From assembly GCA_022827225.1 (NCBI GenBank), contig JAJDTJ010000016.1:1-64000 (forward strand): 64,000 bases of DNA. The letters are read 5' to 3'. Positions 3,653 through 35,496 of this stretch are shown here, in pieces (position 1 is the first letter of the stretch; each line of letters opens with the position of its first letter). The notes beneath the pieces are model-generated. The model was given only the letters and a program-made list of their open reading frames with translations. It ran no database searches and had not been told where the DNA came from. This DNA is from Candidatus Poribacteria bacterium. Its GTDB lineage: Bacteria; Poribacteria; WGA-4E; WGA-3G. Both the position numbers and the translations under genes were made by a program.

Positions 3653-4702
3653 ATGCCGAATGCAATAACGGGGCGTGAGCGTGTACTCGCCGCCCTCCGC
3701 AACGAACCGACTGATCGCACCCCCGTGTGTAATCCGACCTCCGTCGCCACCGTCGAACTCATGGATTTGGTGGACGCGCCTTTCCCACAAGCGAATCGAG
3801 AGCCGGAACTGATGGCACGTCTCGCGGCCACGGGATACACCGAACTCGGCTTCGATACCATCATGCCGGTCTTCACGATTATCCAAGAATCCAGTGCACT
3901 CGGATGCAAAATCCAGTGGGAACAGAAGGATAACTGGCCCACCGTCAAAATGCGGGAACCGATCTGGGAGGATGTCGATGACATCGTTATCCCGAACGAT
4001 TTCCTAACGCATCCAGATACACAGTGTGTCCTCGAAGCGATTAAAATCTTGAAGAAAGAATACGGCGACGAAGTCGCCGTCATCGGAAAAACGATGGGAC
4101 CCTGGTCGCTCGGCTACCACTGCTTCGGTGTCGAACCGTTCCTCTTATTATCGCTTGACGACCCGGGTAAAACGAAACTCGCACTCGACCGGATGAAGGA
4201 AGCGACTGTACAATTCGGGGTCGCACAGATTGAGGCGGGTGCAGACGCACTGACGCTCCCCGACCACGCGACGGGTGACCTTGTCAGCGGCGAATACTAC
4301 CAACGCTACCTCCGAGACCTACACATCGAATTCGTCGAGCGTATCCCGATCCCGTTGATACTGCATATCTGTGGGCGCACGGTCGACCGCATGGAATACA
4401 TCGCACAAACTGGGATGGCAGCCTTCCATTACGACTCCAAAAACGAACCGGAAGAGTCTATGGACATCGTGAAAAAACGGATCGCACTCGTCGGCAATAT
4501 TAATAACCCCGAAACACTGTTCTCCAAAGCACCTGAAGACGTTAAAGCAGAGGTCGTAAAAAACTTGGACGCAGGTGTGCCATTGATAGGCCCCGAATGC
4601 GCAATCCCGCTTCAGACGACTATCGAAAACCTCCAAGCTATCCCGGAAGCCGTTCAGGAGTGGCACCGCGAAAAAACGCGGACAGCAAGGAAAACCTTAT
4701 GA
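3653..4702 (+). CDS. MtaA/UroD-like corrinoid-type methyltransferase
   Basis: The 349-residue cytoplasmic protein belongs to the uroporphyrinogen decarboxylase superfamily (COG0407). It begins with the family hallmark 'R-E-R-V-L-A-A-L-x-N-x-P-x-D-R-x-P'. The putative zinc site of MtaA/MtbA methylcobamide methyltransferases is visible as H238-I-C240 followed by C316, so it is probably a methyltransferase rather than a heme-pathway decarboxylase. The methyl donor and acceptor cannot be told from sequence. No corrinoid protein gene is adjacent. GGAG precedes the ATG by about eight bases, and the stop overlaps the start of the dockerin-thioredoxin gene (ATGA), which suggests translational coupling. 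Confidence 0.82.
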   Translation: MPNAITGRERVLAALRNEPTDRTPVCNPTSVATVELMDLVDAPFPQANREPELMARLAATGYTELGFDTIMPVFTIIQESSALGCKIQWEQKDNWPTVKMREPIWEDVDDIVIPNDFLTHPDTQCVLEAIKILKKEYGDEVAVIGKTMGPWSLGYHCFGVEPFLLLSLDDPGKTKLALDRMKEATVQFGVAQIEAGADALTLPDHATGDLVSGEYYQRYLRDLHIEFVERIPIPLILHICGRTVDRMEYIAQTGMAAFHYDSKNEPEESMDIVKKRIALVGNINNPETLFSKAPEDVKAEVVKNLDAGVPLIGPECAIPLQTTIENLQAIPEAVQEWHREKTRTARKTL

Positions 4703-6063
4703 AAAAATTGACCTGTTTGTTGCTAATGCTCAGTTTAGCACTCCTCGCTTCGACAGCAGGCTACGCCCAAGAAGGGACAGATATTGAGACCTTGCGGGCA
4801 GCCGATGTCAACAGCGATGGCATAATAGACATCCTTGATCTGGTGTTGATCGCTTCGCATTTCGGCGGAACTGTCGCCGAGGATCAGACCCCTAACCCGG
4901 ATGTCAACGGTGATGGTCATATCAACATTCTTGACTTGGTACTCGTTGCGAGTCATTTTGGCGAAACCGTCAGACCGCCTGTTGTATTCCTTAGCGCGGC
5001 ACCAGAAATCGGTTCTGAACTTGACACGAACGGAACGATTACCCTGACCTTCAACAAGCCGCCGGAGGGTGTTACTGTCGGCACTGGCGTTGCCATAACG
5101 CAAGGAAACACTGTCACGATCACCGGTCCGTTCACACCGGGGGACTTGGTGTTGACGATCACTTGGGCAGACGGCACCGAAACCCTCTCTTATGCTATCA
5201 GACCGCTTGTCGCATTCGTTGACATTGACCCGACTGTCAATTCACTGCTGACCGTAGACGGTCGTATTATCGTTACGTTCGACAATCCGGTACAGGATGT
5301 TACTGTCAATACAGGCACCGCCACAACGGATGGGAATACTGTCACGATCACCGGTCCGTTCACACCTGGCGAGCTGGAGTTGACGATTACTTGGTCGGAT
5401 GGAAGCCTAACGTTCACTTACACGGTCGCGGAACCGGATACGGAGGCACCCTCAATCACCGGTGGCACCATCAGCGATGGCGATACAGGTGTTGACCGAC
5501 GCGCGACGATTGAGATTGAATTCAGTGAAGAGGTAACCGGCACTATCGCGCTGCACACCGAAGCCGGTATAGATGTCGGGTGGATAGGCACGGTTGAAGG
5601 GGACACAGCAACGCTTGAATTCGTCGCAGGCAGAGAGCTTAATCCAGAAATCAAATACGTTATTGCTGGAAGCGTCAAAGACGCTGCCGGTAACGAGACC
5701 AAGATCAACATTCCCTTCACGACTGCAAGTCTAACCTCTGGGGTTCCGATTGAAGTCACCGATGCGAACTTTGATACCCTTGTGCTTGAATCTGAGGTTC
5801 CGATTGTGGTTGAGTTTTATACCGACTGGTGACCGTTCTGTCAAAGAATGGTGCCAGTTGTCACCGAAATTGCTTCAGAGAATCGAAACACATTTGCTGT
5901 TGGAAAATTGAACAGGGAAAAGCAGCCCGAAACAGCCAAAAAGTATGGGATTAGACATCAACCTATTTACATCATATTCAAAGATGGAGAGGAAGTCGGA
6001 CGTTTCGCAGGCGTGACACCGAAAAACGACTTCGTCGCGAAGGTGCTTAAGGCTATAAATTAA
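4699..6063 (+). CDS. secreted dockerin-like / Ig-like / thioredoxin selenoprotein (TGA read as Sec)
   Basis: Read through the TGA at 5830, this gene encodes 454 residues. In order: a signal peptide (1-24), two dockerin-type calcium loops (DVNSDGIIDILDL and DVNGDGHINILDL) each followed by a short helix, two similar beta-sandwich repeats ending in TVTITGPFTPG, an SbsA-like Ig domain beginning DTEAPSITGG, and a C-terminal thioredoxin domain. The thioredoxin active site reads D-W-U378-P-F-C381, in place of W-C-G-P-C, followed by the family proline and a cis-proline strand (RHQPIYIIF). Frame and homology continue without a gap after the TGA. A start at 4699 is preferred because AAGGA lies just upstream and a signal peptide begins there. 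It probably acts outside the cytoplasm as a thiol/selenol oxidoreductase. The alternative is a nonsense mutation, argued against by the identical arrangement in the next gene. Confidence 0.8.
5830..5832 (+). other. in-frame TGA, predicted selenocysteine codon (Sec378)
   Basis: The TGA replaces the first cysteine codon of the thioredoxin CxxC motif (U-P-F-C). Flanking protein sequence on both sides fits one continuous thioredoxin fold. Other genes here end normally at TGA, so a general reassignment of TGA is not supported. Confidence 0.75.
5833..5865 (+). promoter_or_regulatory. candidate bacterial SECIS hairpins after the TGA
   Basis: Two stem-loops lie directly after the TGA. The first (5833-5851) pairs CCGUUCU with AGAAUGG (one G-U pair) around the loop GUCAA. 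The second (5850-5865) pairs GGUG with CACC, with an inner C-G pair closing the loop AGUU about 23 bases from the UGA. Bacterial SECIS elements are hairpins close downstream of the UGA with G or GU in the apical loop. The second hairpin fits that spacing better. Pairing was judged by eye only. Confidence 0.45.
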
Positions 6064-6090
6064 CGTTAGTTTGATAGGAAAAGAAAACAC

Positions 6091-6699
6091 ATGAAAAAAT
6101 TGGTTTTTTCGTTGTTCATGCTCAATTTGGTGTTCGGTTTTTGGACAACCGGTTACGCCGAACACGAGGCTTACGATGCGCGGCGTGCAGCCGATGTTAA
6201 CGCCGACGGCTTCGTGAGCATACTCGACCTCACATTCATCGCCTCACATTTTGGTGGGATGCCTGCCGAAGATCAGATGCCTAACCCGGACATCAACAGG
6301 GACGGGATCGTCAATATCCTTGACCTCGTGCTTGCAGCAAGCTATTTCGGTAAAACATCCGGTATCGCGTTTGAAGTTACCGACAAAACTTTTGACGACA
6401 TCGTTCTCGGTTCCGAACTCCCGATCGTTGTAGAATTTAAATCCGAACGCTGAATATACTGTATACTGATGAAGCCTGTGGTCACAGCCGTCGCATTAGA
6501 ATATCGGGATACCTTTACCTTCGCTAAATTGGATGTCAACACACAACCCGAGAAAACGCGGGCGTACAACATCCGCGGCACGCCGACCTACATCGTGTTC
6601 AGGGATGGCGAAATTGCAGGAGCGTTTGTAGGGGCAATGCCAATCGGTGCATTGGTAGAACGTATCCTCGGAATCTTAGAAATCGAAGAAACTGAATAG
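6091..6699 (+). CDS. secreted dockerin-like / thioredoxin selenoprotein, short paralogue (TGA read as Sec)
   Basis: Read through the TGA at 6451, the protein has 202 residues: signal peptide (1-24), two dockerin-type loops (DVNADGFVSILDL, DINRDGIVNILDL) and a thioredoxin domain. It is a compact paralogue of the preceding gene without the Ig-like region. The two align across the TGA (VPIVVEF-x4-U versus LPIVVEF-x4-U). The active site reads R-U121-I-Y-C124, lacking the usual tryptophan, and the cis-proline strand is RGTPTYIVF. Both genes have an ATG 18 bases after the TGA, which would make naive callers split each gene in two. AGGAAAAG precedes the start, 27 bases after the first selenoprotein gene, so one transcript is likely. 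Confidence 0.78.
6451..6453 (+). other. in-frame TGA, predicted selenocysteine codon (Sec121)
   Basis: The codon occupies the same alignment column as Sec378 of the preceding paralogue and forms a U-x-x-C pair with Cys124. Confidence 0.75.
6474..6489 (+). promoter_or_regulatory. candidate bacterial SECIS hairpin after the TGA
   Basis: CUGU (6476-6479) pairs with ACAG (6484-6487) around the tetraloop GGUC, with one more G-C pair beyond a C-C mismatch. From memory, the SECIS of E. coli fdhF also presents GGUC at its apex. The loop begins 26 bases after the UGA. The stem is short, so confidence is limited. Confidence 0.42.
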
Positions 6700-6707
6700 A
6701 TCGGGTT

Positions 6708-8654
6708 TCACGGTGTCGCTGCACCAAAGCCTCCGCGAACAAACACACCCTCCCGATGATAAAACCACCACTCCAATAGTAGCAGGATACATGCGAGCAG
6801 TGCGGGGAACCGCCACACCTCTTGTGTCATCGGTTGCAATCCGTTTTCTATGGGTACCAACGTGTCTGTTTCGGTCGTCGCTGCCGAGTGCGAGAGTGCC
6901 GACGTGTCAGCGTCAAGTAGATTAACGGTGAATTCCAGCGGTCTCTCATCGACATAAAGCGTATAGACCCCGACCTGATCCGTCTCGGTGAATAGTGAAT
7001 CTGCGACTTTAACCCGCTTTTTATCGGGTTTCTCAATGTGTAGGGTAGCACCTTCGGCGATAGATGTAATCCTTATCGGTTCGCCGGTTCGGAATGCGTG
7101 CCGTGTCCGCCCATCCGTAAATTCGAGGGGTTGAAGCGTTGCCGTTGCGGACGCGAATCGCGCCAAAGACTGATAGACAAACAGCGGTGCATCCGGGATC
7201 GTCGTCGCGAAGTTAGAGACCTCTGGGTTGAACGCGTCGAACTCAAAAACGAGGAACTGGCGACCCGAGGCTTGCGCGATCCATATCAGGACACCTTCCT
7301 CCGTTTCAACGAGCGGACGTCCTGAGAGTGGCAGCGTTCGGTACGTCGATTTAAGTACCCGCACCTTTTGTAACGATATGTTTGTCATGAGCCGATGTGT
7401 CTCAGCCGTCTGAATAACGCGCACCGGTGCGTCAACTTCTTTAACGGCACCCTCTGCCTCTCCGATGAACGGCAAGGTGTTACCTGGATGGATAAAAATC
7501 AGATGTGTTCCGGGAGCAGCATCAGCAGAACGTGCCAAAGCCTCGCGTCCCGCCGGTGTGCCGCCATCGAAAATCGCTATATCGGCATCGCCGGTCCCGA
7601 TGTAATCTGCGGGAACAACCTGATGCAGGTCTACATGTGCTCCGTACGTCTCTAAAAGCGTCGGGAGCAGAGACTTTTCGTTGTCACTGACGAGCAGGAT
7701 TCGGAGTTGCGATACACCGGACAAGACGGCGGCGGCACTGTTATCCAGTGCGAAGTCGTCTGCTACCCGAAGATGGACGCGAATAACCTTACCCACCAAA
7801 CCTGCCGGATCATCTGAAAACAGGACAGGCTTCGCCGCCTGTGCCGGGATAGATACCGTTTTGCTATCGAAAGTGGCGTTTTCAACCGCCAGTTCGACCT
7901 CCACTTCTCTAACGGTATCCGTGAAATTCTGAATACCGACCAACACCTCGTATTGGTCTCCCACAATTTCGGCGTTGAAACGGACGATGCCGATGTTCTC
8001 AGCATCCGTACCGACACCGATTTTATGGACGGAAAGCGAGGTCTCCGGTCCGTTCTCAAAGTTCTCAAAACTATCGCTAATCAGGAAAACTTGGTCTTGT
8101 GGCGACTCCACATAGCGGGCTGCGGCATCAAAGACGGGGCGGAGATTGCGTGGCGTATGGCTTTGCGGGATAGCTTCTATGGCGGTGTCGAGTTTCGCGG
8201 TATCTGTCGTGAAGGCTGCTCGGATATAAGCGTCAGATTCGGTAGCACTTGTTATCATGAGCATCATACCGCCGCCAGCGGAGACTTCTTCTATATGCTT
8301 GCGTGCCGCCTGCTTTGCCAAATGAAGACGTGTTTTTCCTGTCTCCGTCGATAGCATACTTGCGGAATTATCGACGATGAGAATTGCGCGCCCCGGTATA
8401 AATCCGGGTCTACGGAGTGCCGGACGCGCTGCGCTGAAGATGACAAGCAGAAGAAATAGGACTTGTAGTATCGGGAGTAGTAGGTTCCGGAGCCGTTGGA
8501 AAGGGACATTCGCTCGCCGGTCCTCGTCGGTCGAGAGCCAGAGCATGATACTCGAAACGCGGTGGGTGTGGCGGCGCAGCTTCAGAAAGTGAAGTGCCAC
8601 CACGATCGGGATAACGCCGAGTAGGTAAAACGCGGCAGGGTTCAGGAACTGCAT
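6708..8654 (-). CDS. BatA-like membrane protein with von Willebrand A domain
   Basis: The 648-residue protein starts with the BatA N-terminal module: a membrane helix near 8-25, the L-W-L-S-T-D segment and a second helix near 58-76. A VWA domain follows, whose metal-ion site is D95-N-S97-A-S99. A long periplasmic beta-rich region and a C-terminal membrane helix (about 622-638) follow. Such proteins (COG1721/BatA group) usually sit near MoxR ATPases and transglutaminase genes and are thought to assemble envelope complexes, but none of those partners is adjacent here. GGGGAG precedes the ATG. It converges on the selenoprotein genes with an 8-base gap. Confidence 0.8.
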   Translation of the reverse strand: MQFLNPAAFYLLGVIPIVVALHFLKLRRHTHRVSSIMLWLSTDEDRRANVPFQRLRNLLLPILQVLFLLLVIFSAARPALRRPGFIPGRAILIVDNSASMLSTETGKTRLHLAKQAARKHIEEVSAGGGMMLMITSATESDAYIRAAFTTDTAKLDTAIEAIPQSHTPRNLRPVFDAAARYVESPQDQVFLISDSFENFENGPETSLSVHKIGVGTDAENIGIVRFNAEIVGDQYEVLVGIQNFTDTVREVEVELAVENATFDSKTVSIPAQAAKPVLFSDDPAGLVGKVIRVHLRVADDFALDNSAAAVLSGVSQLRILLVSDNEKSLLPTLLETYGAHVDLHQVVPADYIGTGDADIAIFDGGTPAGREALARSADAAPGTHLIFIHPGNTLPFIGEAEGAVKEVDAPVRVIQTAETHRLMTNISLQKVRVLKSTYRTLPLSGRPLVETEEGVLIWIAQASGRQFLVFEFDAFNPEVSNFATTIPDAPLFVYQSLARFASATATLQPLEFTDGRTRHAFRTGEPIRITSIAEGATLHIEKPDKKRVKVADSLFTETDQVGVYTLYVDERPLEFTVNLLDADTSALSHSAATTETDTLVPIENGLQPMTQEVWRFPALLACILLLLEWWFYHREGVFVRGGFGAATP

Positions 8655-34932: not shown

Positions 34933-35496
34933 TTAGAGGAGCTTCAAGGCTGCTTCATAGTTACTTCTAACGATGTCTTGGACATCCTTTCGTAACTTCT
35001 GCCAGCTCCGTTGGAGTTTTGCCTTAACCCATGTCTTACCTTCATCAATTCCCATTCCGTGGTGAATATACGCCAAATATAAAAGCGAAGGAACATGTTC
35101 AATATGGGACATTGCATCGGCGTTGGCAAGACATGCGCCTTCCGCACTCCGATATTCAACTCTGACGCTTGCTCGATGTGTCGCGATAGCGTCCTTGACA
35201 GCTTCCGTTTTTTTTCCTGGATAGCCGAAACGCTTGAGGAGTTTTTCTGCTTCAATTGGCCCATGAACGTGATGATCTTCATAGAGTGCTTTGTCCTTTA
35301 TGCTGGCGTAATCATGAAGTAACGCCGCGAGTTCGACAATTTCGGGATCAGCATCAAAGCGTGGGGCGAGTCGTTTTGCGTTTTGAATGACAGGTAAGAT
35401 GTGATGCGTCCAAATATCGTGACCGAAGATGTTGGTGTCAGCAGCACAAGCCTGTTCGACAATCTCCTCAATTCTATTTTTTATGGTTTCAATCAC
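34933..35496 (-). CDS. HD-domain phosphohydrolase
   Basis: The 187-residue protein starts at GTG after AAGGAG. HD-superfamily residues are visible: H31/H32 in WTHHILPV, H61-D62 in ALLHDYASI, the H75-H-x-H78 cluster and a later D in LANADAMSH. It should bind divalent metal and cleave a phosphate bond, perhaps in a nucleotide. Substrate unknown. It heads a two-gene operon with the nucleotidyltransferase. Confidence 0.85.
   Translation of the reverse strand: MIETIKNRIEEIVEQACAADTNIFGHDIWTHHILPVIQNAKRLAPRFDADPEIVELAALLHDYASIKDKALYEDHHVHGPIEAEKLLKRFGYPGKKTEAVKDAIATHRASVRVEYRSAEGACLANADAMSHIEHVPSLLYLAYIHHGMGIDEGKTWVKAKLQRSWQKLRKDVQDIVRSNYEAALKLL

Follow-up and report, generated by a model that had tools for sequence, protein, structure and literature searches.

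The thioredoxin with a UxxC motif (Pfam ID PF00085) is listed as a known bacterial selenoprotein in the available part of a 2026 review (PMC13188914). Marine selenocysteine (Sec)-containing thioredoxins of the Global Ocean Sampling set include Trx-like 1 (COG0526, also UxxC) (PMC2398784), and Sec-thioredoxins are listed in the accessible portions of PMC2398784, PMC1794560, and PMC9312934; those of PMC1794560 also describe the exchange of Sec and Cys. Here, we describe two tandem genes, gene 1 (positions 4699..6063) and gene 2 (positions 6091..6699), found on the forward strand of a 64,000-nucleotide (nt) stretch of DNA from a “Candidatus Poribacteria” bacterium (positions 1 to 64,000 of contig JAJDTJ010000016.1, assembly GCA_022827225.1; referred to below as the window). 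In each of them, a single TGA codon interrupts an otherwise open reading frame (ORF) at the site of the first catalytic Cys of a thioredoxin domain. The predicted products resemble the bacterial Sec-thioredoxins of PF00085 in their thioredoxin fold, in the placement of Sec at the start of the redox motif, in the presence of a Sec machinery in the genome, and in the existence of Cys homologues, but differ from them in having an export-like leader and a dockerin domain (in gene 1 also an immunoglobulin [Ig]-like domain) and in their tandem arrangement. The UxxC type of Sec-thioredoxin is likewise shared with Trx-like 1, as far as the available text of its description goes.

Two further kinds of systems are comparable in part. 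In cellulosome-type cohesin-dockerin systems, the usual cargo is a glycoside hydrolase. The window proteins likewise contain a type I dockerin, with its pair of calcium-loop repeats, and cohesins are encoded in the same genome; however, the cargo here is a redox domain, and the binding is predicted. The DsbD-fed periplasmic thioredoxin-like reductases have a membrane anchor and use Cys. The window proteins likely have in common with them the place of action and the source of electrons (one DsbD-TM gene is present) but would carry Sec rather than Cys, and they have a dockerin instead of the membrane anchor. The sequence-only reading, an earlier note made from the letters of this DNA without database searches, had stated that no family with this architecture was described. 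Searches of the open-licence PubMed Central (PMC) literature agree, in that they returned neither an exported tandem dockerin-Sec-thioredoxin fusion nor any paper that treats Poribacteria together with dockerin, although UxxC Sec-thioredoxins as such have long been known. A paper that mentions selenoproteins together with dockerins concerns, by its abstract, a tool for CAZyme domains; those that mention Poribacteria together with cohesins are, by title, on other subjects; and, among the papers listed that combine thioredoxins with dockerin or cohesin domains, none is on a selenoprotein by title. The terms dockerin, cohesin, and Poribacteria do not occur in the main text, to the extent that it was available, of the review cited above (PMC13188914).

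Domain architecture, TGA position, and the selenocysteine genes

With the TGA read as Sec, gene 1 encodes a 454-amino-acid (aa) protein that consists of a leader, a dockerin, an Ig-like region, and a Sec-thioredoxin domain, whereas gene 2 encodes a 202-aa protein with a leader, a dockerin, and a Sec-thioredoxin domain. Pfam searches were run on translations read in this way. In gene 1 they identify Dockerin_1 with two D-x-N-x-D-G repeats (4801..4953; E-value, 6.5e-11), the Ig-like domain Big_5 (5437..5724; E-value, 1.1e-15), and a thioredoxin domain that extends across the TGA (5749..6045; E-value, 1.9e-22); in gene 2 they identify Dockerin_1 (6190..6333; E-value, 1.9e-10) and a thioredoxin domain, again across the TGA (6373..6663; E-value, 2.4e-18). 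Both dockerins fit type I, with the two calcium-loop repeats of the Dockerin_1 model, and neither protein reaches any NCBIfam model at cut-off. The N-terminal leaders of gene 1 (MKKLTCLLLMLSLALLASTAGYA; 4699..4767) and gene 2 (6091..6159) are hydrophobic by eye and appear signal-peptide-like, and the structure model of the gene 2 product has a low-confidence helix at residues 2-20.

The TGA stands at the first CxxC position in both genes: at 5830..5832 in gene 1, as read from the ORF (U-P-F-C; context TDW-U-PFC), and at 6451..6453 in gene 2, where the ORF reading is joined by the structure model (U-I-Y-C; context SER-U-IYC). The best PDB sequence matches of both proteins are thioredoxins, with alignments that run through the TGA site, and the two PDB matches shown for each gene have Cys there. 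When modelled with Cys in place of U, the gene 2 product adopts a thioredoxin fold with a mean predicted local distance difference test (pLDDT) score of 90.0, in which the TGA residue directly precedes the active-site helix 122-137; among PDB structures, the model is closest to a thioredoxin (root mean square deviation, 1.0 Å). The observation of the sequence-only reading holds for both genes: the TGA occupies the site of the first active-site Cys (here at 5830 and 6451), it is flanked by good thioredoxin sequence on either side, and the proteins bear dockerins.

The genome that contains the window (G000; 5.6 Mb in 151 contigs; completeness, 89.4) encodes all four genes for which a search had been proposed: selA (522.8 bits), selB (367 bits), selC, and selD (358.6 bits), the last with a single in-frame TGA of its own, in VKCAGUASK. 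The selC gene, which codes for tRNA-Sec with the anticodon UCA (76.4 bits; ARAGORN call SeC(tca)), directly follows selB. There are 17 thioredoxin-family matches in this genome, 5 of which contain one TGA, namely, the two window genes and one gene each on contigs C120, C96, and C103. In all 5, the TGA is at the first CxxC position; therefore, its position is not a matter of chance. Because UGA coincides with the first catalytic Cys and the full selenocysteine gene set is present, read-through with Sec is predicted. In our judgment, it is highly likely that genes 1 and 2 are read-through UxxC Sec-thioredoxins, which would be exported and likely anchored through their dockerins outside the cytoplasm. 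The two genes very probably represent two real selenoproteins, and the prediction of Sec insertion is well supported by the sel gene set, by the conservation of the TGA, and by fused homologues with Cys, as the sequence-only reading had proposed.

Cysteine forms, conservation, and alternative readings of the UGA

In a public protein catalogue, the relatives listed for the two genes are for the most part truncated at the UGA. Among the best 120 of the 478 relatives of gene 2, there are 34 full-length fused proteins with Cys-x-x-Cys at the site, 85 short proteins, all but one of which (84/85) end in residue types that stand just before the TGA, and a single protein, P0084, that is out of frame at the site. 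Among the best 120 of the 661 relatives of gene 1, the thioredoxin motif was not seen in any, and the C termini of 116 match one of the seven tetrapeptides that precede the TGA in the loci. The resulting stubs are often 120 aa long for gene 2 and, e.g., 377 aa long for gene 1. This exposes an annotation error, since the Sec forms are entered in the catalogue as truncated proteins. The sequence-only reading had given it as known that automatic callers split such genes, and the fused homologues with Cys in place of the TGA that were to be searched for do exist.

A syntenic Cys form exists as well: at locus L056, a Cys orthologue of gene 2 lies between the same two neighbouring genes, and gene 1 is absent from that stretch. 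The genome of L056 has both selB and tRNA-Sec; therefore, the Cys found there does not track a loss of the Sec trait, and the use of this genome as a control for the loss of selA was dropped for the same reason. On a quick-search tree of 107 rows and 111 columns, from which P0084 was left out and in which 50 of the 103 inner branches are open, the label changes between Sec and Cys 8 times, and at least 5 of these changes are forced by starred branches; the tree does not settle their direction. Repeated exchange of Sec and Cys within one gene family makes a good case for studying why Sec is kept or lost.

The genome comparison included 60 genomes (G000 among them), 36 from within the genus and 24 from outside it. 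The thioredoxin part of gene 2 was matched in 59 of the 60, and 34 of the 36 genus genomes, counting G000, have an orthologue of gene 2 that contains a single TGA. In G005, the best match lacks a TGA and begins directly past the site, and the gene as read on locus L059 is broken there; the genome of L059 and G005 share the place and score of SelA. On L059 itself, the gene 2 orthologue is broken around the Sec site (positions ~930-1110), and the adjoining gene 1 retains its TGA. No close gene 2 orthologue was found in G027, which has TGA-bearing thioredoxins at ~50% identity only. Outside the genus, the matches listed represent 14 genomes, none of them with a TGA (0/14); one genome had no match, and the matches of 9 genomes rank below those listed. 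All named loci returned for gene 2 (29/29) come from Poribacteria. SelA was detected at an E-value of 1e-40 or better in 52 of the 60 genomes, including 33 of the 36 in the genus, and so the Sec trait is wider than the gene 2 protein. In sponge symbionts, SelA and SelB co-occur in most bins of various phyla, according to the available part of PMC5649159.

The part of gene 2 that follows the TGA is under purifying selection, with a median ratio of nonsynonymous to synonymous differences (pN/pS) of 0.20 (33/33 orthologue pairs). For gene 1, the median pN/pS after the TGA is 0.60, indicating weaker purifying selection; this value was calculated from 18 of 27 pairs, as the other 9 failed the filter on length or identity.

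Among the readings that compete with plain Sec insertion, the one that survives best assumes a dual product, with the UGA serving as a selenium switch: at low selenium, the gene would yield the short dockerin (or dockerin-Ig) form, and the complete redox protein would be produced once enough selenium is available. The short form would indeed be a complete leader-dockerin protein, but some termination is expected at any Sec-UGA, and we consider such a switch rather unlikely. It is very improbable that the TGA is a true stop, in which case the products would be short proteins with a dockerin (or a dockerin and the Ig-like domain), and the thioredoxin part would be left untranslated or be restarted at an in-frame ATG. 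An ATG does occur six codons past the TGA in both genes, and, as noted above, nearly all short catalogue relatives of gene 2 end at that point. However, a methionine in the same place is found in the Cys forms too, and a restarted product would have neither the leader nor the first catalytic residue; moreover, purifying selection persists downstream of the TGA, the Cys forms are fused in a single frame, and the genome has the Sec genes. Decoding of the UGA as Cys or another residue, by a different suppressor tRNA or through loose readthrough, has the least chance of all, for although Cys is the aligned residue in homologues and some bacteria have Cys tRNAs that read the opal codon, the one tRNA-Sec match over the cut-off is SeC(tca) beside selB (no scan for other UCA-anticodon tRNAs was made).

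Candidate SECIS hairpins

The model of the bacterial selenocysteine insertion sequence (bSECIS), as given in the available part of PMC13188914, consists of a loop of 3-9 nt whose first two positions include a G and an upper stem of 4-16 bp, located 16-37 nt from the UGA, with an energy of -7.5 kcal/mol or lower; according to the same source, some known genes also fail it. A scan was coded from this published model, with a continuous 4-bp stem at the loop, and its results were compared with those for 20 synonymous randomisations. Across the locus comparisons, identical segments were counted once, three copies of the window (L023, L026, and L067) were left out, and the Cys group was taken without L049, L056, and L130. 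The Sec groups were chosen for holding a TGA, so that its presence in 100% of their members is by construction and not evidence.

The candidate SECIS of gene 2 (6466..6499, forward strand) has a 4-bp upper stem, CUGU/ACAG, a GGUC loop 26 nt after the TGA, and an outer 6-bp stem. At -7.7 kcal/mol, it agrees with the published model; with the shorter flanks of the scan, its energy is -4.7 kcal/mol. In the scan, 10 of the 16 members of the gene 2B group, the window's type, passed (randomised mean, 0.27; maximum, 0.56), as did 12 of 12 in the other Sec family (mean, 0.47; maximum, 0.75) and 1 of 9 Cys paralogues (mean, 0.16; maximum, 0.33).

The candidate of gene 1 (5850..5865, forward strand) combines a GGUG/CACC stem with a C-G pair, and its AGUU loop lies 23 nt downstream of the TGA. 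The RNAalifold consensus of 28 orthologues has the form GGCG/CGCC, a 1+1 internal loop, the C-G pair, and the AGUU loop at the same spacing; for the other Sec family, the scan likewise gave AGUU as the loop in 5 of the 6 members listed. Codons +8 CCA, +9 GTT, +10 GTC, +11 GCC, +12 GAA, +13 ATT, and +15 TTA are each the sole codon used wherever the residue is kept, compared with a mean dominant codon fraction of 0.75 in the comparison columns (n = 47), and the best three of 51 windows of synonymous constraint fall on this stretch. One pair of the stem covaries (C-G in 18, U-G in 6, U-A in 2, A-U in 1, and unpaired in 1). We read the frozen stretch as a putative RNA signal whose form departs from the published bSECIS model.

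Several results weigh against the prediction of Sec insertion. The gene 1 hairpin fits the model in its loop and spacing but fails it in its stem, which has the 1+1 internal loop, and in its energy (-4.5 kcal/mol); only 1 of 28 gene 1 orthologues passed the scan, which is below random (mean, 0.28; maximum, 0.43); the minimum-energy fold of the 54-nt segment is a different hairpin closer to the TGA; and a single covarying column pair is little evidence. In the gene 2A group, 13 of 18 passed, which is about random (mean, 0.59; maximum, 0.89), and neither the stems of the window's type of gene 2 nor those of gene 2A show any two-sided changes. The stability of the 54-nt segments relative to shuffles is unremarkable for the two window genes (z of -0.48 and -1.36). 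To these may be added that the Cys form of L056 occurs in a genome with selB and tRNA-Sec; selA has only weak matches there, which may reflect an assembly gap. Accordingly, the SECIS check suggested with the sequence-only reading gives a divided answer, with a hairpin that agrees with the model in gene 2 and one that fails it in stem and energy in gene 1, although synonymous constraint and one covarying pair are present there.

Other approaches to the hairpins were rejected. The TGA-proximal hairpin of gene 1 is less conserved than the candidate (80.4% of cells paired versus 97.9%), its covariation is within that of shuffles, and its loop is too near the UGA for the model. A comparison of RNAalifold scores with independently randomised alignments (0/200 reached in all four Sec groups and 2/200 in the Cys group) was dropped, because rows randomised in this way lose their relatedness, which makes every group look better than it is. 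The stability of single hairpins was not accepted as good evidence; mean z values against synonymous randomisation are +0.74 for gene 1, -0.44 for gene 2A, -1.38 for gene 2B, -1.77 for the other Sec family, and +0.35 for the Cys paralogues, and the hairpin of L048, a gene 2A relative, is more stable than its shuffles (z of -2.72).

A putative exported redox system and its genomic setting

If genes 1 and 2 are Sec-thioredoxins, the sel genes found in the genome would provide for their synthesis, with SelD expected to yield selenophosphate and SelA to yield Sec-tRNA-Sec. SelB would then bind the hairpin just after each UGA, where the candidate structures and the synonymous constraint are observed, and deliver Sec. 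The leader would direct the product to the general secretion pathway, and the dockerin would dock on a cohesin module encoded by the genome. Outside the cytoplasm, the UxxC site may reduce disulfides or other oxidised groups of proteins, with electrons likely coming from the single DsbD-type membrane transporter. Of 18 cohesin matches in G000, 17 exceed the cut-off (in 17 places), and there is one DsbD-TM match (183 bits); because of these, the gene content suggests a redox system outside the cytoplasm in which cohesins provide the docking sites and DsbD the electrons. A more far-reaching version, which we put forward tentatively and hold to be possible rather than probable, is that Poribacteria export several Sec-thioredoxins, which attach through their dockerins to a scaffold of cohesins and are recharged by DsbD. 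Such a system would be a modular, selenium-dependent redox counterpart to the cellulosome, overlooked in public annotation owing to the truncation of the Sec copies at the Sec codon by gene callers. If true, an exported, scaffold-bound form would join the known Sec-thioredoxins, and a sponge-associated phylum would be investing selenium in extracytoplasmic redox chemistry.

Both flanks of the gene pair are conserved. The upstream neighbour (3653..4702, forward strand) encodes a methyltransferase of the MtaA/CmuA type with a URO-D fold (NCBIfam MtaA/CmuA families over the cut-off). Its end and the start of gene 1 share 4 bases, an overlap that makes a common operon likely. The convergent downstream neighbour (6708..8654, reverse strand) encodes a 648-aa protein with a weak NCBIfam match, which we take to be BatA-like. 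Around gene 2, the methyltransferase gene is present upstream in 18 of 23 loci and the BatA-like gene downstream in 21 of 23. Where a neighbour is absent, the end of the contig was mostly reached first; this is not clearly so for L059, which is without the methyltransferase, and L048, which has no BatA-like gene within ~1 kb. The order of genes 1 and 2 varies among the loci.

G000 has three other TGA-bearing thioredoxins. The one on C120 (positions 4362-4655; L024) is a Sec-thioredoxin, AEW-U-GFC, that follows a lipoprotein-like leader; ~5 kb away on the same contig (positions 9568-9864; L022) lies a Cys paralogue, TDW-C-PFC, and such a Sec and Cys pair on a shared contig recurs in several relatives. 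The gene on C103 (positions 64969-65235; L035) likely encodes a Sec protein with a leader, a thioredoxin-like domain (TDW-U-GTC), and a long tail that resembles tetratricopeptide repeats by eye. The fifth TGA-bearing thioredoxin, AEW-U-GAC, on C96 (positions 34936-35244; L025), has a strong scan hairpin 35 nt after the TGA.

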